Shown here: in pieces, positions 8,860 to 49,663 of the stretch | How positions within the stretch are numbered: the first letter of the stretch is position 1 | Layout of the letters: every line of letters begins with the position of its first letter | DNA from: Streptomyces californicus | GTDB lineage: Bacteria; Actinomycetota; Actinomycetes; Streptomycetales; Streptomycetaceae | Assembly: GCF_000717645.1 (NCBI RefSeq) | Contig: NZ_JNZZ01000019.1 | Span: forward strand, 124,001 to 188,000 | Length of the DNA stretch: 64,000 nucleotides | Reading direction: 5' to 3' | The notes under the pieces: model-generated | What the model saw: only the letters and a program-made list of their open reading frames with translations | Told to the model about the DNA's origin: nothing | Database searches by the model: none | Translations under genes and position numbers: made by a program

Positions 8860-10539
<1,680 letters not shown>

Positions 10540-16249: not shown

Positions 16250-17866
16250 ATGACGGGCTCCCGCGCGACACCCGCGCCCACGGCCACCGCACACGACCGG
16301 AACCGGGGCGGACTGGCCCTGCTGGTCATCGCCTCCTGCCAGCTGATGGTGGTGCTCGACGTCACCATCGTCAACATCGCGCTGCCGCACATGCAGAAGG
16401 ACCTCGGGTTCTCCACCGAGAACCTGTCCTGGGTCGTCAACGCCTACACGCTGACCTTCGGCGGCCTGCTGCTGCTCGGCGGACGGCTCGGCGACATCCT
16501 CGGCCGCCGCCGGGTCTTCATCTTCGGCGTGCTCCTCTTCGTGTTCGCCTCGCTGCTCGGCGGGCTCTCCCAGGAGGGCTGGCAGTTGCTCGCCGCCCGC
16601 TCCCTCCAGGGCGTCGGCGGCGCGATCGCCTCGCCCACCGCCCTGTCGCTGATCACCACGACCTTCCGCGAGGGCCCCGAACGCAACCGCGCCTTCGGGG
16701 TGTTCGCGGCCGTCTCGGCGGGCGGCAGCGCGATCGGACTGCTCGCCGGCGGGGTGCTGGTGGAGTGGCTGGACTGGCGCTGGGTCCTGTTCGTCAACGT
16801 CCCCATCGGCTTGCTGATCGCCCTCGCCACACCCCGGTTCATCCCTGAATCGGAGCGCCGCCCCGGCCACTTCGACATCGCCGGCGCGCTCACCTCGACG
16901 GCCGGCATGGTGCTGCTCGTCTACGGGTTCATCAGGGCGTCCGAGGAGGGCTGGACCGAGGCGCTGACCCTCGGCTCGTTCGCCGCCGCCGTGGTCCTGC
17001 TCGCCGTGTTCATCCTGGTCGAGCGCGGCTCGAAGCAGCCCATCACCCCCCTGTGGATGTTCCGCGACCGCAACCGCGCCGGGTCGTACGCGATGATGCT
17101 CAGCCTCGCCGCCGCGATGTTCGGAATGTTCTTCTTCCTGACGCTCTTCGTGCAGAACGTCCTCGAGTTCAGCCCGCTCAGGGCCGGGCTCGCCTTCCTG
17201 CCGGTGAGCGCGGTCATCGCCGTGAGCGCCGGGCTGGCCTCGCAACTGCTGCCCAAGTGGGGGCCGAAGCCCTTCATGGTGGTGGGCGCGCTCCTGGCCG
17301 CCGCCGGGCTCGGCTGGCTGACGCTGACCGACGTCCACAGCACCTACCTCGGCTCGATCCTCGGACCGATGCTCGTCTTCGGCTTCGGCATGGGCATGCA
17401 GTTCGTGTCGCTGACCCTGATGGCGGTCTCCGGCGTCGCCCCGAAGGAGGCGGGCGCCGCCTCCGGCGTCCTCAACGCCACCCAGCAGGTCGGCGGTTCC
17501 CTGGGCCTCTCGATCCTGGTCACGACGTTCGGCACGGCGAGCCGCAACGAGGCGTCCGACCAGGTGCCGAAGTTCCTCCGCGAGGGCACCCCCGCCCAGC
17601 TCCTGGAGTTCCGCAGGACCGGCCAACTGCCCTCGCCCTGGGGCGATCAGGTCCTCACCTCGGGTGTCTCCAGCGCCTTCGTCGTCGCCGCCTGCTTCGC
17701 CGTGCTCGCGGCCCTCGTCGCGCTCTTCGTCATCCAGGTGCGCTCCAGCGACCTGGCCCGCCTCCAGGGCGGCGCGACGCCGCTCGCGGGGGAGGGCGCG
17801 GGCGAGGACGCCGAGACCGGGCCGGGCGCCGGCCCCGACACCGACCGACCCGCGAAGGGGCGTTGA
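16250..17866 (+). CDS. DHA2-family MFS efflux transporter
   Basis: 538 residues with about 14 transmembrane helices, as in the EmrB/QacA family. Signatures: LDVTIVNIALPHMQKDLG in helix 1, GGRLGDILGRRRVF (motif A) and RSLQGVGGAIASP (motif B/C region). It should be a proton-driven exporter of lipophilic compounds. It sits 120 bp after the phenolic-lipid operon on the same strand and could export or give resistance to its product (inference). The VOC gene follows after 3 bp, so the two are co-transcribed. Confidence 0.9.
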   Translation: MTGSRATPAPTATAHDRNRGGLALLVIASCQLMVVLDVTIVNIALPHMQKDLGFSTENLSWVVNAYTLTFGGLLLLGGRLGDILGRRRVFIFGVLLFVFASLLGGLSQEGWQLLAARSLQGVGGAIASPTALSLITTTFREGPERNRAFGVFAAVSAGGSAIGLLAGGVLVEWLDWRWVLFVNVPIGLLIALATPRFIPESERRPGHFDIAGALTSTAGMVLLVYGFIRASEEGWTEALTLGSFAAAVVLLAVFILVERGSKQPITPLWMFRDRNRAGSYAMMLSLAAAMFGMFFFLTLFVQNVLEFSPLRAGLAFLPVSAVIAVSAGLASQLLPKWGPKPFMVVGALLAAAGLGWLTLTDVHSTYLGSILGPMLVFGFGMGMQFVSLTLMAVSGVAPKEAGAASGVLNATQQVGGSLGLSILVTTFGTASRNEASDQVPKFLREGTPAQLLEFRRTGQLPSPWGDQVLTSGVSSAFVVAACFAVLAALVALFVIQVRSSDLARLQGGATPLAGEGAGEDAETGPGAGPDTDRPAKGR

Positions 17867-41468: not shown

Positions 41469-42074
41469 TCAGGGGGTGGCGCCCGCGCAGCGCAGCGCCA
41501 CGGCGGTGAGGCGGGCCACGAGCAGGTCCACGTCGTGCGCGGCCGACGTGCCGAGCGGGTACACGAGGACCTCGCCGACGGCGCCGGTGAGGGCGGCCGC
41601 GGTGGTCTCCGGGTGCTGGGCGGGCAGTACGCCGGCGGTGACGCCCTCCTCGATCACCTCGGCGAAGAGCGTCCGGTAGCGGCGCCGGAAGGCGAGGCGT
41701 TCCGCGCCGACCGCGGGCTCGACGGGGGCGGCGAGCAGGGCGTGGGCCAGACCGTGGTTCTCCAGGGCGCGGCGGGCGAACACGTCCACGCCCCGGCGCA
41801 GCCGCTCGACGGCGTCGCCGTCGCCCGCCAGCACCTCACCCAGCACCTCCACCTCGCGCCGGGCGGCGCGCCGGAAGACCTCGACGGCGAGCGCGGACTT
41901 GGAGGGGAAGTGCTGGTAGACCGAGCCGGCGGCGATCCCGGCCGCGTCGGCGACGGCCGACACGGACGCCTGCGCCCAGCCCGCCTCCGCCACGACCTCG
42001 GTGGCGCGGACGACGAGATGTTCCCGGGCGGCTTCGAGCCGGCGCACCTCGGCCGGGGTCTTGCGGTAGGCCAT
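41469..42074 (-). CDS. TetR/AcrR-family regulator
   Basis: 201 residues. HTH in residues about 20-65 (EVVAEAGWAQASVSAVADAAG, then SVYQHFPSKSALAVEVFRRA). The C-terminal ligand domain is Ala/Leu-rich and variable. Co-directional with, and 57 bp upstream of, the AidB-type gene, so it probably governs that operon. A TGAA-n6-TTCA dyad (42083-42096) begins 8 bp upstream of its start and may be its autoregulatory operator. An in-frame ATG further upstream is possible but would overlap that site. Confidence 0.87.
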   Translation of the reverse strand: MAYRKTPAEVRRLEAAREHLVVRATEVVAEAGWAQASVSAVADAAGIAAGSVYQHFPSKSALAVEVFRRAARREVEVLGEVLAGDGDAVERLRRGVDVFARRALENHGLAHALLAAPVEPAVGAERLAFRRRYRTLFAEVIEEGVTAGVLPAQHPETTAAALTGAVGEVLVYPLGTSAAHDVDLLVARLTAVALRCAGATP

Positions 42075-42226: not shown

Positions 42227-43003
42227 TCAGTGCCCTGTGCCGGCGTGTTCGTCCGTGCCGCGCCCCGGGCTCTCGGTCACGGGCAGGCACTCGGCGAGCA
42301 GGTCCACGACATCGCGCCAGGCCCGCCGCGCGTGCCGCGGGTGGTGCCCGACGCCGGCGACCACGGGGTGGTCGACCGGCGGGTGGTGGAAGGCGTGCAG
42401 GGCGCCGCCGTAGACCGTGAGCCGCCAGTCGACGCCCGCCGCCCGCATCTCGGCGGTGAACGCGTCCCGTCGCGCGGGCGGCATGATCGGGTCCTCCGAC
42501 CCGACCCCGGCCCACACCGGGCAGCGGATGCGGGCCGCCTCGCCCGGCCGGCCCGTGGTGGTCGCGTTGACCGTCCCGATCGCGCGCAGGCCGACGCCGG
42601 CGCGCCCGAGTTCCAGGCCGATCGCGCCCCCGGTCCCGTAACCGATGGCGGCGATCCGGTCGGGGTCGGTCCGCGGTTCGGCGCACAGCGCGTCGAGCGC
42701 CGCACCGCCGATCTCCCGCATGCGGTCGGGGTCGTCGAGCAGCGGCAGGCACCGGGCCAGCATCTCCTCGGGGTCGCCCAGATAGCGACCGCCGTGGAGG
42801 TCGAAGGCCAGCGCCACGTACCCCAGTTCGGCGAGCGCCTCGGCCCGGCGGCGTTCCACGTCGCCGAGCCCCATGCCCTCCGGCCCCACCAGTACCGCGG
42901 GCCGGGGGCCGGTACCGGCAGGGAGGGCGAGGTGCCCGACCATCGTCAAACCGTCGGCCGGGTACTCGACCGTGCGTGTGGTCACCGTCGTCATCGTCCT
43001 CAT
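42227..43003 (-). CDS. Dienelactone-hydrolase-family protein lacking the nucleophile Cys
   Basis: 258 residues, alpha/beta-hydrolase fold. Family blocks PAVLVGPEGMGLGDVERRRA and DPDRIAAIGYGTGGAIGLEL are clear. In active dienelactone hydrolases the elbow reads GYCFGG; here residue 123 is Gly (codon GGG) and the next is Thr, so the cysteine nucleophile is absent. The acid (VGSEDPIMPP) and His (YGGALHAFHHPP) remain. It may be inactive, use Thr124, or serve as a binding protein. Divergent from the acetoacetate-decarboxylase-like gene. Two ATGs (43003 and 42994) are possible starts. Confidence 0.82.
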   Translation of the reverse strand: MRTMTTVTTRTVEYPADGLTMVGHLALPAGTGPRPAVLVGPEGMGLGDVERRRAEALAELGYVALAFDLHGGRYLGDPEEMLARCLPLLDDPDRMREIGGAALDALCAEPRTDPDRIAAIGYGTGGAIGLELGRAGVGLRAIGTVNATTTGRPGEAARIRCPVWAGVGSEDPIMPPARRDAFTAEMRAAGVDWRLTVYGGALHAFHHPPVDHPVVAGVGHHPRHARRAWRDVVDLLAECLPVTESPGRGTDEHAGTGH

Positions 43004-43144
43004 GGGGTCGGACTGTAGTGAGCGCCCGGCCCTGCCCGGCTGTCGTTCCGCCACTGGCGGAACGGCGGTGACATCCGGACGGCGGCCCCTGCCCGGGGGC
43101 GGTCGAGGCCCCGCCCCGCTCGCGCCGCCGACGGGACGCCGCCC

Positions 43145-43177
43145 GTTGTTGAGGGTGCTCACATCGCCCTCTATGGT
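43145..43177 (+). promoter_or_regulatory. Promoter with operator motif (copy C) for the adc-like operon
   Basis: -35 TTGAGG (43149-43154), 17-bp spacer, -10 TATGGT (43172-43177). The 18 bases 43145-43162 (ending GGGTGCTCAC) match, at 14 positions, the motif over the -35 of the 48.2-kb promoter. Start of transcription would be near 43184, 32 nt before the ATG. Confidence 0.62.
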
Positions 43178-43215
43178 CATGTGTGCATCGCTTACATGAA
43201 AGTGGGGAATCCGTC

Positions 43216-44142
43216 ATGCCATCGCCGCGGAACAGCAACGACGCCGTCAAGGTCGATCTGGGAGGCCGCGAGGTCCTGGTTCCCGAAGGCGGTCTGTACG
43301 ACCGGTTCCGGATGGCCCCCGATCTCGACGAGATCGCCCGTGACCCGCGCGTCAGCGGCGTGGACTTCTTCCGGCGGCAGCCGAAGACGAGGGTCGACTC
43401 GCCGATCGGGCCGACCCTGACCCCGAACTTCTACTACACGATCTCGACGGCACGACTGACCATGCTGGCGCCCTCGCGCGCGATCCGCGCCCGGCTGCCG
43501 CGGGAGCTGGCGCCGCTGGAAGCGGCGCCGGGGCTGGGCCTGGTGTCGGTGATGTTCTTCCGGTACGACGTCTGCGACATCGACTTCTACACCGAGGCCG
43601 CCGTCGGGATCGCCGTACGCCCGGCCCGGCACGGGAAGCTCGGCTTCCTCGACCTGGTCACCGGGCTCAAGAACGAGCACCTCCACTCGTACGTGCTGTC
43701 GCTGCCGGTCAGCTCGCAGATCGCGCAGGTGCGCGGCCACGACGGCTACGGCTTCCCGAAATGGGTCACCGGCCTGGACGTCGGCATCGACGACCGGCGC
43801 ACCACCGCCCGGGTGGCCGACGACGCCGGCGGCGTGGACCTGGCGCTGTCGGCGCCCACCCCGCCCCAGCGGGCCTACCACAGCGGTGAACGGGTCGGCT
43901 CGCTCACCTCCTACACCACGATCGACGGCGCCTGGCACGCGACGCTGAACCAGACGAACGTGCTCAACGCCGGTACCACCCGCGCCACCCGCGGCATCGC
44001 ACTTCAGCTCGGCGAGGGTCGCATGTCCGACGACCTGCGGTCGCTGAGGCCGAAGCGGACGATCCAGTTCGACGTGATGACCGAGGGGCAGGCGGCGCTG
44101 CACATGCCGGTGCCCACCTCGGTCGACAGCCGCGTCAAGTAA
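43216..44142 (+). CDS. Acetoacetate-decarboxylase-family protein
   Basis: 308 residues. The Schiff-base Lys of the family is in DGYGFPKWVTGLD (about 178-190), and NFYYTISTARLTMLAPSRAIRA and GIAVRPARHGKLGF blocks fit the ADC beta-barrel. Family members decarboxylate or retro-aldol/dehydrate 3-keto acids via the Lys imine. It is 19 bp upstream of an aldehyde dehydrogenase gene, suggesting a two-step catabolic unit. ATG at 43216 has GTGGGGAATCCGTC upstream; a longer start (GTG 43183) would coincide with the predicted transcription start and contain a TTA codon, so it is unlikely. Confidence 0.83.
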   Translation: MPSPRNSNDAVKVDLGGREVLVPEGGLYDRFRMAPDLDEIARDPRVSGVDFFRRQPKTRVDSPIGPTLTPNFYYTISTARLTMLAPSRAIRARLPRELAPLEAAPGLGLVSVMFFRYDVCDIDFYTEAAVGIAVRPARHGKLGFLDLVTGLKNEHLHSYVLSLPVSSQIAQVRGHDGYGFPKWVTGLDVGIDDRRTTARVADDAGGVDLALSAPTPPQRAYHSGERVGSLTSYTTIDGAWHATLNQTNVLNAGTTRATRGIALQLGEGRMSDDLRSLRPKRTIQFDVMTEGQAALHMPVPTSVDSRVK

Positions 44143-44161
44143 GCAGCGAAGGAGCCCCGTC

Positions 44162-45757
44162 ATGGCCACCATCCACGCCGAGAGCAAGGCCGTCCGCGGT
44201 CCGGACCTGCCCGCCACCATCACCCCGGCGCTCCTCGGGCGGCTGGCCGCCCTGGTCGCGGCCGCCCCCGGCGCCGAGCGGACCACCACCACCGCCCCCT
44301 ATACCGGCCTCCCGCTGGCCGACCTCCCCGTCTCCACCCCCGACGACGTGGACGAGGCGTTCGCCCGCGCCCGGGTCGCGCAGCGGGGATGGGCGGCGAC
44401 GCCGGTGCGGGAGCGCAAGCGGATCCTGCTCCGCTACCACGACCTGGTCCTGGCCCGCCGGAACGAGGTCCTGGACCTGATGCAGGCCGAGAACGGCAAG
44501 ACCCGCCGCGACGCCTTCCTCGAAGTCGTCGACATCGGGATCGTCTCCCGCTACTACGCCCGCACCGCCGAGAAGTACCTCCGGCCCAAGCGGCGCCGGG
44601 GCGCGATCCCGCTGCTCACCCGCACCACCGAACTGCGCCACCCGAAGGGCGTCGTCACGGTCGTCTCGCCGTGGAACTACCCGCTCAGCATGGCCGCCAG
44701 TGACACCGTCGCCGCCCTCATGGCCGGCAACGCCGTCGTGCAGAAGCCCGACACCCAGACCGCGCTGACCGCCCTGTGGTCCATGGATCTCCTGCGCGAG
44801 GCCGGACTCCCCGAGGACGTGTGGCAGATGGTGATCGGGCGGGGCAGCTCGATCGGCGGTGCGCTGATGGACAACGCCGACTACATGATGTTCACCGGCT
44901 CCACGGCCACCGGCCGTCACATCGCCGCCGACGCCGGCCGCCGCCTGATCGGGGCCTCCCTCGAACTCGGCGGCAAGAACCCCATGATCGTCCTCGACGA
45001 CGCCGACATCGACGAGGCCGCCGCCGGAGCCGTCGCCGCCTGCTTCCCCTCCGCCGGGCAGCTCTGCGTCTCCGTCGAACGCCTCTACGTCCCCGAGTCC
45101 CTGCGCGACGACTTCATCGCCGCGTTCGTCGCCCGCACCCGGGAACTCGCCATCGGGGGCGCGTACGACTACAGCATGGACGTCGGCAGCCTCACCACCC
45201 CCGCCCAGCTCGCCACTGTCACCGACCACGTGAACGACGCCGTCGCCAAGGGCGCCACGGTTCTCGCCGGAGGCCGTCCGCGTCCCGACCTCGGCCCGCT
45301 CTTCCACGAGCCGACGATCCTCACCGACGTCACGCCCGACATGACGCTCCACTCCCACGAGACCTTCGGCCCCGTCGTCTCCGTCCACACCTACCGGGAC
45401 GACGAGGAGGCCATCGCCCTGGCCGACGCCACCCCGTACGGGCTCAACGCCAGCGTCTGGTCCCGCAGCGGTGCCTGCGGCCGGGCCGTCGCCGCCCGCG
45501 TCCACGCCGGGACCGTCAACGTCAACGAGGCGTTCGCCGCCGCCTGGGGCAGCGTCGACGCGCCCATGGGCGGCATGGGCGACTCCGGCCTCGGCCGCCG
45601 CCACGGCGCCGACGGCATCCTCAAGTACACCGAACCCCAGACCGTCGCCCACCAGCGCCTCCAGGGCTTCACCCCGCCCCCGGGCATCAGCCCCGAGACC
45701 TGGGCCACGCTCCTCACCGGCTCCATCAAGCTCCTGAAAGCCATCGGCGCCCGCTGA
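44162..45757 (+). CDS. NAD(P)+-dependent succinate-semialdehyde dehydrogenase-type enzyme
   Basis: 531 residues. ALDH core with catalytic Glu in SLELGGKNPMIVLDD (about 270-284) and catalytic Cys in SAGQLCVSVERLYV (about 297-310, Cys at 302); cofactor loop VVSPWNYPLSMAASDTVAALMAGN (about 165 on; GNAVVQKPDTQT). Closest in pattern to the GabD2-like succinic semialdehyde dehydrogenases of actinobacteria. The N-terminal extension of about 40 residues is longer than in E. coli GabD. Co-transcribed with the ADC-like gene; the antisense strand of its 3' end is entered by the decayed hydrolase frame. Confidence 0.9.
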   Translation: MATIHAESKAVRGPDLPATITPALLGRLAALVAAAPGAERTTTTAPYTGLPLADLPVSTPDDVDEAFARARVAQRGWAATPVRERKRILLRYHDLVLARRNEVLDLMQAENGKTRRDAFLEVVDIGIVSRYYARTAEKYLRPKRRRGAIPLLTRTTELRHPKGVVTVVSPWNYPLSMAASDTVAALMAGNAVVQKPDTQTALTALWSMDLLREAGLPEDVWQMVIGRGSSIGGALMDNADYMMFTGSTATGRHIAADAGRRLIGASLELGGKNPMIVLDDADIDEAAAGAVAACFPSAGQLCVSVERLYVPESLRDDFIAAFVARTRELAIGGAYDYSMDVGSLTTPAQLATVTDHVNDAVAKGATVLAGGRPRPDLGPLFHEPTILTDVTPDMTLHSHETFGPVVSVHTYRDDEEAIALADATPYGLNASVWSRSGACGRAVAARVHAGTVNVNEAFAAAWGSVDAPMGGMGDSGLGRRHGADGILKYTEPQTVAHQRLQGFTPPPGISPETWATLLTGSIKLLKAIGAR

Positions 45758-45799
45758 ACGACCACCCTCCGGGCCCGCCGGGCGCCCGGCACACGCGGG

Positions 45800-46757
45800 C
45801 CCGGACCTGAGCGCGTCCACGGCGAGGGTCCGCGCCACGTTGGCGGCACGGGTGTCCCGCAGGCTGTCCAGGAGGAGGAAGTCGTGGACCATGCCGGCCA
45901 CCCGCACCGACGTGACGTCCACACCGGCCTCCCGCAGCTTGTTGGCGTACATCTCCCCCTCGTCGCGCAGGACGTCCGCCTCGTCGGTGATGACGAGGGT
46001 GGTGGGCAGCCCCTTCAACTGGTCGAGGGTGGCCCGCAGCGGCGAGGCGTAGACCTCGGTCCGCTGCGCGGGGTCGCTGGTGTAGGCGTCCCAGAACCAC
46101 TTCATGCCGTCGCGGGTGAGGTAGTAGCCCTCGGCGAACTGGAGGTAGGACGGGGTGTCGAAGTCGGCGTCGGCCACCGGGTACAGCAGGACCTGCGCCT
46201 TGAGGTCGATCCCCGCGCGCTCCTTGTTCATGAGGGCGAAGACGGCCGACATGCAGCCGCCGACCGATTCGCCGGTGACGGCGATCCGCGAGGTGTCCAG
46301 GCCGTGTTCCGCGCCGTGTTCGAGGACCCACTGGCCCACGGCGTAGTTCTGCTCGACCTGGGTGGGGTACTTCGCCTCGGGGGCCCGGTCGTAGACCGGG
46401 AAGACCCCGGCCGCGTCCGCGCCGACGGCGAGTTCGCGGAAGAGGCGGTCGTGGGTCTTGTCGTCGCCGAAGACCCAGCCGGCGCCGTGGATGTAGAACA
46501 CCACCGGCAGCGGCCCCGCAGCGCCCTTCGGACGGATGATGCGGGTGGGGACGGTGCCCCAGGCGCCCGCGTCCACGTCGACCCACTCCTCGTCGACCTC
46601 GGGGCGGGGGACACTCGCGTCGCTCTGCAGGCCGAGCAGGATGTCCCGGCCCTTCTCCGGCGGGACCTCGTAGATCCGGGGATGCGGATCCGTCGCCTCG
46701 CACAGCTCTTTCGCCGCGGGTTCCAGATAGGGGGATCGGAGGGGGAAGGTCAGTCAT
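45800..46757 (-). pseudogene. Alpha/beta-hydrolase fold-3 gene broken by a 4-bp duplication
   Basis: A ribosome site (GGGAGCGGAC) and ATG (46757) are followed at once by a tandem 4-bp repeat (GTCAGTCA on the + strand, 46749-46756). Reading from that ATG gives nonsense. Removing one copy joins ATG-ACC to a frame reading FPLRSPYLEPAAKELCEAT, then VVFYIHGAGWVFGDDKTHDR, the nucleophile elbow VTGESVGGCMSA, TDEADVLRDEGEMY and VAGMVHDFLLLDSLRD: a full hormone-sensitive-lipase-type hydrolase. That frame has no stop where the family ends (about 45800) but runs on through antisense of the aldehyde dehydrogenase to 44135. Only a GTG at 46576 could start it, dropping about 60 residues. Confidence 0.75.
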
Positions 46758-47228
46758 GTCCGCTCCCTGTCGCGGGCACACGGGTGCCCGGTTCGCGCGG
46801 CCGGACGGCCGGTCGCCGCCGGTGCGTGCACCTGCCGTACGGACGGACGGTCCGCCCGCGCCGGGCAGGCGCGCCACGCATTCCTCCATCGTTCGAGGCC
46901 GCCCCGTCCTCCGCAACCCGGTCACCGGCCGCCGGCGTCGTTTCGGGAAGCGCCCGGCGGCCTCCGCACCCGGGACGCGCCGCCCGGGGACGGGGCGGTA
47001 CGCCGACGGGTCAGCCGCACGAAGCCGCTGCCGGGCCGGCGCACCCCGCTGCAGCGCCCCGGCTCGCGACGGCCTCCACCCCGTCGGGAGCACGGGGCCT
47101 CACGCGGTCCCGTCCCGGTCGAGGACCGCCTCACCCCGGTACGGTCCACCCGCCCGGCGACCGGCTGCCGGGCCGGTGGAGAGGGAGGCGGGCCGTGGGG
47201 CGCCGCCCGCCCGGAAGCCGCCGAGCGG
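46758..47228. other. Intergenic stretch without recognised gene
   Basis: 471 bp of GC-rich DNA between the broken hydrolase and the symporter gene. Open frames here have the amino-acid composition of shadows (Arg/Pro/Gly-rich) and no ribosome sites. I see no RNA gene, repeat family or clear promoter. Confidence 0.6.
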
Positions 47229-48116
47229 TCAGACGACCGGGGCGGGTTCTTCGGCGGTGCGGGCTCCCCGGGCCATCAGCACCCCCGCCAGCGCCGCCAC
47301 CGGGTACATGAGCACCCCGTAGACGGCGGCGGGCACCGCCAGCCCGACGCTGCCGAGCACGCTGATCGCGAGGGTCATCGCGACGGCGCTGTTGTGCACG
47401 CCGATCTCCATCGAGCAGGCGATCGACTGCTGCTCGCCGAGCTTCAGCAGACGCGGCGCGGCGTACCCGAGGGCGAGGCTCGCCACGCAGAACGCCAGTG
47501 CCGCCGGTCCCACGTCCACGAGATAGCCGACGATGGAGTCCCGCTCGGCCACCAGCGCCCCGAGGATCACGGCGACGAGGACGACGACCGACAGCAGCCG
47601 CACCGGACGGTCCATGCGCCGGGCGAAGACCTCCGAACGGCGGCGCACCGCCATGCCGATCACCACGGGCACGAGCACCAGGGCGAACACCTGGAGCACC
47701 TTCCCGAACTGCAGCCCCAGACCGTCCTGGCCGATGTCCGGCTCGAAGTGCCGCAGGGCGAGGTTGGTGATGACGGGCAGCGTCACGATGGCCAGCACCG
47801 CGTTGACCGCGGTGAGCGTGACGTTCAGCGCCACGTCGCCGCCGAACAGGTGGCTGAAGAGGTTCGCCGTCGTGCCGCCGGGCGACGCGGCCAGCAGCAT
47901 CATGCCGACGGCGAGTACGGGGGAGAGGCCGAAGGCGACGACCAGCCCCAGGCACACGACGGGCAGCAGCAGGAGTTGGCAGACCATGGCCACGACGACG
48001 GCGCGGGGATGACGCCGGACCCGGCAGAAGTCGTCGACGGTCAGGGACAGCCCGAGGCCGAACATGATGACGGCGAGGGCGAGCGGGAGAAAGACGGTGG
48101 TGAGAGGCGTGTCCAT
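47229..48116 (-). CDS. Bile-acid:Na+ symporter (BASS/SBF) family protein
   Basis: 295 residues, about nine to ten transmembrane helices. Family signatures: VIMFGLGLSLTVDDF near 18-32, MMLLAASPGGTTANLFSHLFGGD near 73-95 (the Na+/substrate GGxxxN crossing helix), and SIACSMEIGVHNSAVAMTLA near 232-251. BASS carriers move organic acids (bile acids, pantothenate, pyruvate, 2-keto acids) with Na+. A near-consensus promoter lies 113 nt upstream, overlapped by an operator-like motif shared with the ADC operon, suggesting uptake of a related keto acid. ATG at 48116 lacks a strong ribosome site. Confidence 0.88.
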   Translation of the reverse strand: MDTPLTTVFLPLALAVIMFGLGLSLTVDDFCRVRRHPRAVVVAMVCQLLLLPVVCLGLVVAFGLSPVLAVGMMLLAASPGGTTANLFSHLFGGDVALNVTLTAVNAVLAIVTLPVITNLALRHFEPDIGQDGLGLQFGKVLQVFALVLVPVVIGMAVRRRSEVFARRMDRPVRLLSVVVLVAVILGALVAERDSIVGYLVDVGPAALAFCVASLALGYAAPRLLKLGEQQSIACSMEIGVHNSAVAMTLAISVLGSVGLAVPAAVYGVLMYPVAALAGVLMARGARTAEEPAPVV

Positions 48117-48235
48117 GCGCGGCTTCGTCTCCAGGGGCGGGTGTGGCGCGAAGGGCGGGGCGGAAGGACGGGGGGTGCGGCGCACCGGCGGGGCGGCCGT
48201 ACGGCCCGCGCGGCCGGGCGCCGACCGTTCCGCGC

Positions 48236-48274
48236 ACAGTAGGGGCCCGCGTGAGCACTGTCAACATTGAGGTG
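48236..48274 (-). promoter_or_regulatory. Promoter of the symporter gene with operator motif (copy A)
   Basis: On the minus strand: -35 TTGACA (48264-48259), 17-bp spacer, -10 TACTGT (48241-48236), a near-consensus vegetative promoter. The 24 bases 48251-48274 match copy B at 20 positions; minus-strand core AATGTTGACAGTGCTCAC covers the -35 box. It has weak dyad symmetry (TG-n3-AC-n-GT-n3-CA). Confidence 0.72.
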
Positions 48275-48454
48275 GCGCCTCGCTTCCCGCCGCCTGCGGG
48301 GTCTGTTGGGGGTGGGTGTGTCCGCCACCCTCGCGCGCCGCCGTCGGCCCGTCGCGTCGCCGTGCGTGCGCCGTATGCCGGGGCAACGATGGACGTGCCG
48401 GGACGGCCGGACCCGGGTCGCGTGCATGGTGATCGACGAGGGGGACCTCTCCAT

Positions 48455-48478
48455 GTGAGCATTGCCAACATTCTGGTG
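48455..48478. promoter_or_regulatory. Operator-like motif, copy B
   Basis: Minus-strand core AATGTTGGCAATGCTCAC; 20 of 24 positions equal to copy A, 204 bp away in the same orientation. Followed on the + strand by TACGGT (48479-48484), which could be the -10 of the epimerase promoter with a poor -35 at 48456. Confidence 0.6.
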
Positions 48479-48745
48479 TACGGTGGGTGTCCCGGGCCCC
48501 GTCGGGCAGTGAGAACGGAAGCGGCGGCCGTGAGAGACCTCCGGGCCGACGCCGCTCGCGGGCTCGACGAGGCGGCACGGGAGCGCGACCGGGAGCGGAC
48601 ACGCCGCGTCGCGACAAAAGTCGCTGACGACGGAAGCGGCCGCCCGCCGGACGCCTTCGCGGCCCGGCCCGCGTCGTTCTCGCGGGACCGCGGACCCGTA
48701 CACGCCCCACGGGCGTCAAGCAGACACGAGAGAGTGATACACCCC

Positions 48746-49663
48746 ATGCACACCGTTCTGGGCGCCAACGGGCCGATCGGCGAGGAGCTCGCCAAGGAGC
48801 TGTACCGCACCTTCACGCGGGACATCCGCCTGGTCAGCCGCAACCCCGCGAAGGTCCACGACACCGATCAGCTCGTCAAGGCCGACCTAACGGATCCCGA
48901 GGCCGCCGCACGGGCCGTCGAGGGCAGCGAGGTCGCCTACCTCACCGTGGGCCTGCCCATGGACTCGGAACTGTGGGAGCGGCAGTTCCCCGTGATGATG
49001 CGCAATGTCATCGACGCCTGCGCGACGTACGGCACCAAGCTCGTCTTCTTCGACAACACGTACATGTACCCCGGCACCACCACCCCGCAGACCGAGTCGA
49101 CACGCTTCGAGCCGAACGGCCGCAAGGGCCGGGTGCGCGCGGAGATCGCGAACACGCTGCTGGCCGCGATGGCGGCCGGCACGGTGGACGCCGTGATCTG
49201 CCGCGCGCCGGAGTTCTACGGTCCCGGCAAGACCAAGAGCCTGACGAACTCGCTCGTCTTCGACCGGATCAAGGCGGGCAAGAGGCCCTTCGTCCCCGTC
49301 AGCGCGAAGACCGTCCGATCGCTCATCTGGACGCCCGACGCGAGCCGGGCGATGGCTCTGATCGGTAACACCCCCGACGCCTACGGGCAGACCTGGCACC
49401 TGCCCGTCGACCCCCACCGGCTGACCTACGCCGAACTGATCGGGGTGGCCGAGGAGGTCACCGGCCGCCGGATCCCGTACACGGTGCTGCCCCTGGCTGT
49501 CTTCACCGTCGGAGGCCGCTTCGTCGGACCGCTCGGAGAGGTCGAGGAACTGCTGCCGCGCTACCGGGGCGACAACGTCTTCGACAGCTCCGCGTTCACC
49601 AGGCGCTTTCCGGACTTCGCCGTCACCTCCTACCGCGAGGGCGTCACCGAGATCCTCGCCTGA
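48746..49663 (+). CDS. NAD(P)-dependent epimerase/SDR-like protein
   Basis: 305 residues. An atypical SDR of the NmrA/epimerase type: N-terminal HTVLGANGPIGEELAKELYR supplies the GxxGxxG-like nucleotide loop, and VFFDNTYMYPGTTTPQTEST near 108-127 holds the Tyr-x3-x region; C-terminal WHLPVDPHRLTYAELIGVAEEV is typical of nucleoside-sugar-epimerase relatives. The exact catalytic Lys is not evident. It may act as a reductase/epimerase or as a redox-sensing NADP-binding protein. ATG at 48746; the leader is long if copy B marks its promoter. Confidence 0.82.
   Translation: MHTVLGANGPIGEELAKELYRTFTRDIRLVSRNPAKVHDTDQLVKADLTDPEAAARAVEGSEVAYLTVGLPMDSELWERQFPVMMRNVIDACATYGTKLVFFDNTYMYPGTTTPQTESTRFEPNGRKGRVRAEIANTLLAAMAAGTVDAVICRAPEFYGPGKTKSLTNSLVFDRIKAGKRPFVPVSAKTVRSLIWTPDASRAMALIGNTPDAYGQTWHLPVDPHRLTYAELIGVAEEVTGRRIPYTVLPLAVFTVGGRFVGPLGEVEELLPRYRGDNVFDSSAFTRRFPDFAVTSYREGVTEILA

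Follow-up and report, generated by a model that had tools for sequence, protein, structure and literature searches.

Predicted inverted-repeat operators at an ADC-ALDH operon and neighbouring promoters of Streptomyces californicus, and their candidate TetR_C_33 repressor

Three copies of one operator-like motif, together with a fourth and weaker one, lie in the 64 000-nucleotide stretch of Streptomyces californicus DNA analysed here (the window), and we read them, with a probability of about 0.85, as operators of a single TetR_C_33 repressor encoded on contig C10. The coordinates of sites, promoters and genes are collected in table 1.

The three copies were found where the original prediction had placed them, with exact 18-bp cores at 43145-43162 (+), 48251-48268 (-) and 48455-48472 (-), and the similarities given for them proved right on re-reading: the two 48-kb copies share 20 of 24 bases, and copy A shares 14 of 18 with the 48.25-kb copy. 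Copy A and the 48.45-kb copy are identical at 12 of 18 bases. Both promoters described for the ADC-like operon and the symporter are also present as claimed, and at other ADC promoters the -35 and the operator stand in the same register. The fourth copy, A2, had been missed; it matches ATGTNNNCRNYGNNNACAT exactly, being one of 3 such places genome-wide. A further window match at 16359 (-) scores 13.9, slightly above A2, and is taken for chance, while A2 is trusted despite its score because of its position. No second arm was detected for B or C at 28, 29 or 33-38 bp on either side.

Table 1. Features of the window and the candidate regulator; scores are from a matrix trained with the window left out.
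Feature	Position	Strand	Remarks
TetR (TetR_C_24 type) of the original prediction	41469..42074	-	C-terminal family differs; judged not to be the regulator
Operator A1 (TTGTTGAGGGTGCTCACAT)	43146..43164	+	over -35 of ADC-ALDH promoter; score 30.8
Promoter of ADC-ALDH operon, TTGAGG-17-TATGGT	43149..43177	+	read in sequence
Operator A2 (ATGTGTGCATCGCTTACAT)	43179..43197	+	second arm 33 bp past A1, just 3' of -10; score 13.6
ADC-like protein (PF06314)	43216..44142	+	Pfam ADC 37.4 bits, cut-off 29.8
Aldehyde dehydrogenase, succinic-semialdehyde type, operon gene 2	44162..45757	+	NF006916 802 bits, above cut-off
SBF/BASS family Na+ symporter-like protein	47229..48116	-	PF01758 119 bits; TIGR00841 below cut-off
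Promoter of SBF-family symporter, TTGACA-17-TACTGT	48236..48264	-	read in sequence
Operator C (ATGTTGACAGTGCTCACGC)	48249..48267	-	on -35 of symporter promoter; score 22.2
Operator B (ATGTGAGCATTGCCAACAT)	48453..48471	+	upstream of epimerase, overlaps likely -35 and spacer; score 27.7
Likely -10 of epimerase promoter, TACGGT	48479..48484	+	same spacing to operator in L174
NAD(P)-binding epimerase/NmrA-like protein	48746..49663	+	PF01370, PF13460, PF05368
Candidate TetR_C_33 regulator	contig C10, about 26.08-26.70 kb	-	orthology and own upstream sites

The matrix search that had been proposed as a check was run with 26 other loci as the training set, and this window-free matrix recovers A, B, C and the second arm at 43179 with the scores of table 1. 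The site takes the form of a 19-bp imperfect inverted repeat. When sites scoring at least 14 within 300 bp upstream of a gene are counted, they are found at 38 of 39 ADC-like genes (12 of the 13 loci outside the training set), 34 of 37 cognate tetR genes, all 19 old-yellow-enzyme (OYE) genes and all six quinone-oxidoreductase (QOR) genes, against 0.19% of control segments (n = 8491); the TetR, OYE, QOR and epimerase counts overlap wherever one divergent region serves two genes. The sole ADC promoter without a site is that of L178 (best 6.3), and the three tetR genes below the threshold are those of L117 (4.8), L131 (13.5) and L186 (5.1). Four of the 30 TetR loci (L203, L211, L212 and L215) have no site of at least 10 beside the TetR, L203 carrying one at its ADC promoter instead, and none of 28 aldehyde dehydrogenase orthologues has a site of its own upstream. 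Among 82 pairs of neighbouring sites at most 120 bp apart, 52 are spaced by 33-34 bp and 15 by 28-29 bp. The motif is kept upstream of orthologues in related genomes, at orthologous and unrelated promoters of several genera, so that the refuting condition attached to the original prediction did not arise, and the sites look like genuine operators conserved across several actinobacterial groups.

The same comparison supports the epimerase as a probable regulon member. Copy B had rightly been assigned to the epimerase side, but the 48.45-kb copy fits a promoter on the plus strand rather than the minus-strand reading first given to it. Upstream of the epimerase orthologue of locus L174 (87%), a site scoring 15.2 stands equally far from the -10, with 12 of 20 bases alike; GGTGTACGGT is identical there at 10 of 10 positions and at an equal distance from the operator, other blocks outside operator and -10 reaching at most 5 of 10. 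When the sequences upstream of the two epimerase genes are aligned locally, the best match (score 57, against a maximum of 48 in shuffles) falls near the gene start, off the operator. No convincing ADC or ALDH remnant was detected between operator B and the epimerase of the window. In L174, a short ALDH-like remnant seems to be present between operator and epimerase.

Very probably, the regulator is a TetR of the TetR_C_33 type and not the TetR at 41.5 kb. The TetR_C_33 gene is present in 24 of 26 relative loci (missing from L109 and L130), where it has the same sites upstream, and among 392 Streptomyces genomes it occurs in 43, including 17 of the 18 with an ADC homologue (p = 3e-17, phylogeny ignored). 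As the gene is unlinked in this genome, its pairing with the operators of S. californicus is drawn from orthology and from the sites that it carries itself, one of them weak: the C10 TetR is 88% identical to the TetR adjoining ADC-ALDH in S. sindenensis, and two sites lie upstream of it (scores 25.9 and 7.9), both among the palindrome-scan matches listed (one mismatch). The cognate TetR carries PF00440 and PF13305 above cut-off, that is, a TetR_N and a TetR-like C-terminal domain, and its structure model is confident (pLDDT 87). One cysteine is invariant in all 26 cognate rows of the alignment (L085 and L112 being one gene) and absent from the single non-cognate row; the same cysteine recurs in 21 of 21 rows of a second alignment. 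By itself, such conservation is no proof of redox or electrophile sensing.

In the mechanism that we propose, the TetR_C_33 repressor would bind the imperfect inverted repeats of 19 bp. The -10 of the ADC-ALDH promoter lies between two sites spaced by 33 bp, so that two bound dimers would cover the start region as well as the -35; at the promoters of the epimerase and the symporter, control would come from one site overlapping the -35, and the repressor would also repress its own gene. The inducer may be an electrophilic or reactive-carbonyl compound, releasing the repressor directly or by modifying the invariant cysteine, upon which enzymes would be made that reduce, oxidise or degrade this compound.

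The electrophile part of this explanation has, in our estimate, about an even chance. QOR passes its NCBIfam cut-off (TIGR02824), and the OYE and DJ-1/PfpI domains are assigned by Pfam; the combination of OYE, a PIG3-type quinone reductase, DJ-1/PfpI and an aldehyde dehydrogenase suggests electrophile defence rather than plain catabolism. Of the catabolic regulon originally put forward, the regulon is supported by the sites, while the word 'catabolic' becomes doubtful, detoxification of electrophiles or reactive carbonyls reading better because the wider regulon holds, by gene name, OYE, quinone oxidoreductase and DJ-1/PfpI. A catabolic role under the same TetR operators, in which the symporter would import one particular carboxylic acid or terpenoid for breakdown and a pathway intermediate would act as inducer in the TetR pocket, is a possible though not a probable alternative. 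Most TetRs indeed respond to small ligands, and an SBF symporter, an ADC-like enzyme, a semialdehyde dehydrogenase and an alpha/beta hydrolase lie close together; however, the general reductases OYE and QOR have sites elsewhere in every case counted, and the symporter site is seen only in this genome. Electrophile defence in its most complete form is itself tentative: this would be an undescribed actinobacterial regulon with a cysteine-switched TetR, operator pairs that bracket the -10 at fixed spacings of 33-34 or 28-29 bp, and an ADC-superfamily enzyme that performs a new reaction and, with the aldehyde dehydrogenase, destroys reactive carbonyls. Among the titles listed in the literature, searched mostly outside subscription journals, we found none that describes the regulon. 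The OYE orthologue, though a frequent partner elsewhere, is missing from this genome (best 32-37% identity) and the PfpI beside the C10 TetR looks frameshifted, so that the regulon may be decaying here.

A single repressor had been predicted to link all the genes around the motif; this is supported for the ADC-ALDH operon and the epimerase, whose orthologues have the motif upstream, but the case for the symporter is weak because seven orthologues (L089-L095, 55-61% identity) and the Actinocorallia one, eight in all, are without a site. Its place in the regulon would rest mainly on its own site in this genome. We consider it rather unlikely, even so, that site C is non-functional and that the regulon here comprises ADC-ALDH and the epimerase only. 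Besides the siteless orthologues, this reading is favoured by the missing second arm of C and by the absence from it of the conserved AT on the 3' side, whereas the score of C, its placement on a good -35 and the occurrence of an SBF gene close to the regulon in Actinocorallia L110 speak for a working site.

The TetR at 41.5 kb had been named as a candidate regulator, and it does lie less than 2 kb from the ADC gene. However, its own 300 bp upstream hold no site (best -17.2), its C-terminal domain differs from TetR_C_33, and the 43 loci compared contain no separate homologue of it at E 1e-12 (one weak partial match, in L086, reaches E 3e-6), whereas most of them contain a TetR_C_33 protein; we therefore reject it as very improbable.

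At no more than three mismatches, the 18-mer is matched twice in the window, by the pair of copies at 48 kb, copy A being too divergent for this search, and GTTGRCARTGCTCAC occurs exactly at these two places only in the 7.78-Mb genome. Chance similarity aided by shared -35 hexamers, for which one could cite the -35 contained in both A and C and the 38 places where GTTGRCARTGCTCAC occurs genome-wide at no more than two mismatches, is ruled out for practical purposes by the shuffles (mean 0.00, n = 100), by the window-free matrix and by the upstream-site counts over several genera. Most of the 38 places are noise, since a reversed-pattern control already gives 14.

QacR and CprB are TetR repressors that place two dimers on each operator region, and a DarR-DNA dimer-of-dimers entry is among the Foldseek matches listed for the TetR model. 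The likeness to these three lies in the inverted-repeat operators and in the several dimers that are likely at each promoter; here, unlike there, the -10 is bracketed by two distinct and complete sites with a spacing of 33-34 or 28-29 bp. The nearest solved structure among the matches listed is PDB 3on2, a member of the TetR family from Rhodococcus sp. RHA1 with 37% identity across the model, an entry without assigned function in which the conserved Cys114 of the cognate TetR is not kept in alignments. As for the ADC-like protein, its low-confidence model (pLDDT 62) matches the fold of the ADC superfamily (3bh2, MppR 4jmc and the S. bingchenggensis aldolase-dehydratase 4zbo) at 12-16% identity, with Foldseek E 1e-8 to acetoacetate decarboxylase 3bgt/3bh2; by sequence, no solved structure was matched. 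In acetoacetate decarboxylase a second Lys follows the active-site lysine, whereas in the ADC-like proteins the lysine of GYGFPKW, invariant in 23 of 23 rows, is followed by Trp.

A further parallel is offered by the electrophile regulon of Escherichia coli, NemR-NemA(-GloA), in which the repressor gene adjoins that of an old yellow enzyme in a self-regulated operon, followed by a glyoxal-handling gene, and the regulator contains cysteines (PMC3739934). The likeness consists in adjoining regulator and OYE genes, predicted self-regulation and a regulator cysteine; the present system differs in its phylum, its TetR_C_33-type regulator, its paired 19-bp operators and its putative targets, namely ADC-ALDH, a quinone reductase and an epimerase. 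TetR and OYE genes are adjacent in 20 of the 30 TetR loci (one OYE being a fragment), though not in the genome of the window, and NemR is neither among the best 50 of the 222 Foldseek matches (E 0.001) to the TetR model nor among the NCBIfam names.

What emerges is an operator defined precisely enough to be tested, a candidate for its regulator, and a set of genes that recurs in Streptomyces, Nocardia, Amycolatopsis, Rhodococcus, Actinocorallia and Actinacidiphila, and asking what induces the regulon could allow a function to be assigned to the ADC-like family. The C10 case shows how operators can persist when the regulator gene becomes separated from its regulon. Two other places of the genome, C14:36102 (score 8.1, inside a restriction-specificity-like gene) and C5:27122 (7.3), were rejected as further operators, both being within reading frames; the weak arm at C10 scores about as these chance-like matches do, and no better.

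The operator-like motif present in three copies around the acetoacetate-decarboxylase-like (ADC; PF06314) gene and the aldehyde dehydrogenase (ALDH) gene of the same operon very probably belongs to the local regulon of a TetR protein with paired predicted operators. The positions and mutual similarities of the three copies were confirmed exactly, and the 18-mer, with up to three mismatches, gave two matches in the 64 kb, the mean for 100 shuffles being 0.00. Genome-wide, the exact 15-mer core occurs at the two 48-kb places only; with up to two mismatches it was found at 38 places versus 14 for a reversed-pattern control, so that the mismatch scan is by itself unconvincing. A 19-bp matrix was trained on the ADC promoters of 26 loci with ADC-like relatives, from named Streptomyces, Nocardia, Amycolatopsis, Rhodococcus, Actinocorallia and Actinacidiphila genomes, the window being left out; the consensus obtained includes ATGTnnnCAnTGnnnACAT, an imperfect inverted repeat. 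This matrix retrieved the three copies together with a second arm that the original prediction had overlooked, and 30 simulated windows of the same dinucleotide frequencies gave a mean of 0.03 matches scoring at least 14. One further site-like match, ATGTTGACGATGGTGACGT, is likely owing to chance; its 19 bases recur identically at C4:141667 of this genome, which suggests a coding match.

Predicted operators and neighbouring features in the window
Feature	Position	Strand	Matrix score
Operator A1	43146	+	30.8
Second arm A2, 33 bp after copy A	43179		13.6
Operator B, epimerase side	48453	+	27.7
Operator C, symporter	48249	-	22.2
Site-like match	16359-16377	-	13.9
ADC-like gene	43216..44142		
ALDH gene	44162..45757		
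Dienelactone-hydrolase-like gene	42227-43006	-	
Alpha/beta hydrolase frame	44135-46576	-	

Sites upstream of genes were then counted across 43 loci in addition to the window (44 checked), a gene being included only when matched as far as the N-terminus with an identity of at least 55%, and being positive with a site scoring at least 14 no more than 300 bp upstream; L183 (DNA identical to L120) was dropped beforehand, and L085 was left out as the same DNA as L112. In these counts, which are partly dependent since TetR/OYE, TetR/epimerase, TetR/QOR and ADC/OYE often have a common divergent region, a site was found upstream of ADC in 38/39 cases (12/13 outside the training set, L178 being the exception), of the cognate TetR in 34/37, of an old yellow enzyme (OYE) in 19/19 and of a quinone oxidoreductase (QOR) in 6/6, and 0.19% of 8491 control segments had one. 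The epimerase was positive in 11/18 (9 of these 11 being regions shared with tetR), the symporter and the short reductase-like gene of L108 in 1/2 each, and the dienelactone hydrolase in 1/1, namely through copy A, common to ADC. Lower counts were obtained for the DJ-1/PfpI protein gene (PfpI; 4/32), the alpha/beta hydrolase (1/20), ALDH (0/28), AraC (0/6) and AidB (0/1). The scarcity of sites at ALDH and PfpI fits the location of ALDH, and in many loci of PfpI, 3' of ADC on the same strand. Orthology and partly common ancestry link the ADC promoters to one another (L109 and L130 come from two strains of a single species); the weight of the test rests on the TetR, OYE and QOR promoters, which are not orthologous to them.

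The idea of a single regulator was right on the computed evidence, and the TetR at 41.5 kb, named as its candidate, was the wrong one. Indeed, the latter has no upstream site (0/1), and a TetR homologous to the L085 or C10 protein occupies the same locus in 24/26 ADC-relative loci (absent from L109 and L130), PF13305 (TetR_C_33) being detected in both locus TetRs that were scanned. The window's genome encodes a single close homologue, on contig C10, with 53% identity to the L085 protein and 88% to its S. sindenensis counterpart; the remaining matches are much weaker (E 1e-6 or worse), and two sites, scoring 25.9 and 7.9, lie upstream of the C10 gene. This TetR (E 1e-40) was found in 43 of 392 Streptomyces genomes; among the 18 with an ADC homologue (E 1e-15) it is present in 17, a co-occurrence with a hypergeometric p of 3e-17, phylogeny being ignored. 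OYE adjoins TetR in 20 of 30 fetched TetR loci (one OYE being a fragment) and, for genomes without ADC, in 12 of 17; a site scoring at least 10 lies between the genes in 11 of these 12, and a pair in 8. The TetR recognition region (S45, A48-H52) is without variation in 21/21 rows from both TetR clades, in line with a single common operator.

Among the 82 pairs of neighbouring sites no more than 120 bp apart, 52 are spaced by 33-34 bp, 15 by 28-29 bp and 15 otherwise. At ADC promoters, the first site covers TTGAC(A/G), followed by a TAnnnT -10 after 17 bp in 16/39 rows and after 18 bp in 5 more, many remaining rows having GATCCT, GACCCT or similar hexamers at this place; the second site, if present, is immediately 3' of it. 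Copy A has the same arrangement (TTGAGG-17-TATGGT, then ATGTGTGCATCGCTTACAT), and no second arm was found at copies B and C. The dienelactone-hydrolase-like gene, divergent from ADC, shares the intergenic region holding A1 and could thus be co-regulated with ADC. The alpha/beta hydrolase frame, an antisense read-through across ALDH, is without its own stop, so the gene end looks frameshifted or lost.

The proposed link to the symporter is supported in the window, where site C, a good match, lies on the TTGACA -35, and does not extend to its orthologues: no site was found at seven of them (55-61% identity), nor at that of Actinocorallia L110 despite its place in a regulon neighbourhood. The symporter is thus probably a recent local member. 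As for the epimerase, three arrangements with the regulon occur: facing TetR (L112 and others), 3' of ADC-ALDH-PfpI on the same strand (L176), or with its own site (the window, and L174, where some 0.5 kb further upstream the contig ends). The L174 site (score 15.2) is in register with operator B, 12/20 bases being alike, and GGTGTACGGT follows each (10/10), other blocks reaching at most 5/10. Site and -10 are accordingly read as conserved between the two promoters, and on this ground operator B was assigned to the + strand epimerase promoter, for which a single comparison is moderate evidence. Between operator and epimerase in L174 (approx. 10059-10127), a short stretch resembles an ALDH remnant (weak tblastn), a hint that the epimerase was formerly 3' of an ADC-ALDH operon.

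The description of the regulon as catabolic is doubtful, as its recurrent members are OYE, PIG3-type QOR (TIGR02824 match above cut-off), DJ-1/PfpI proteins (HchA-like matches, below cut-off), a semialdehyde-type ALDH and the ADC-like protein. This set resembles the Escherichia coli NemR regulon, in which electrophiles inactivate the repressor by way of its cysteines (PMC3739934). By analogy, TetR cysteine 114 is a lead towards a NemR-like electrophile response; it is present in 26/26 cognate rows (chosen by an HHGDLR-like motif, the L117 and L126 TetRs not included, and L085 and L112 being one gene) and missing from one non-cognate row. Foldseek, run with a poor model of the ADC-like protein, assigned it the ADC fold, and the lysine of GYGFPKW is invariant in 23/23 rows.

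The regulon looks prone to loss. In the window's genome, TetR is not linked to ADC-ALDH, an OYE orthologue is absent (best match 32-37% identity), and the C10 PfpI, on the other side of the regulator gene (9080-9771 of L106, the C10 locus), matches in two frames and is apparently frameshifted. ADC exists in pieces only in 6 of the 18 ADC genomes (G033, G075, G214, G293, G372 and G377). ADC is also broken or partly deleted in the Streptomyces loci L087, L088 (an ADC-ALDH fusion), L185, L186 and L187, and sites scoring at least 14 are still upstream of four of these five damaged genes, that of L187 being the exception.
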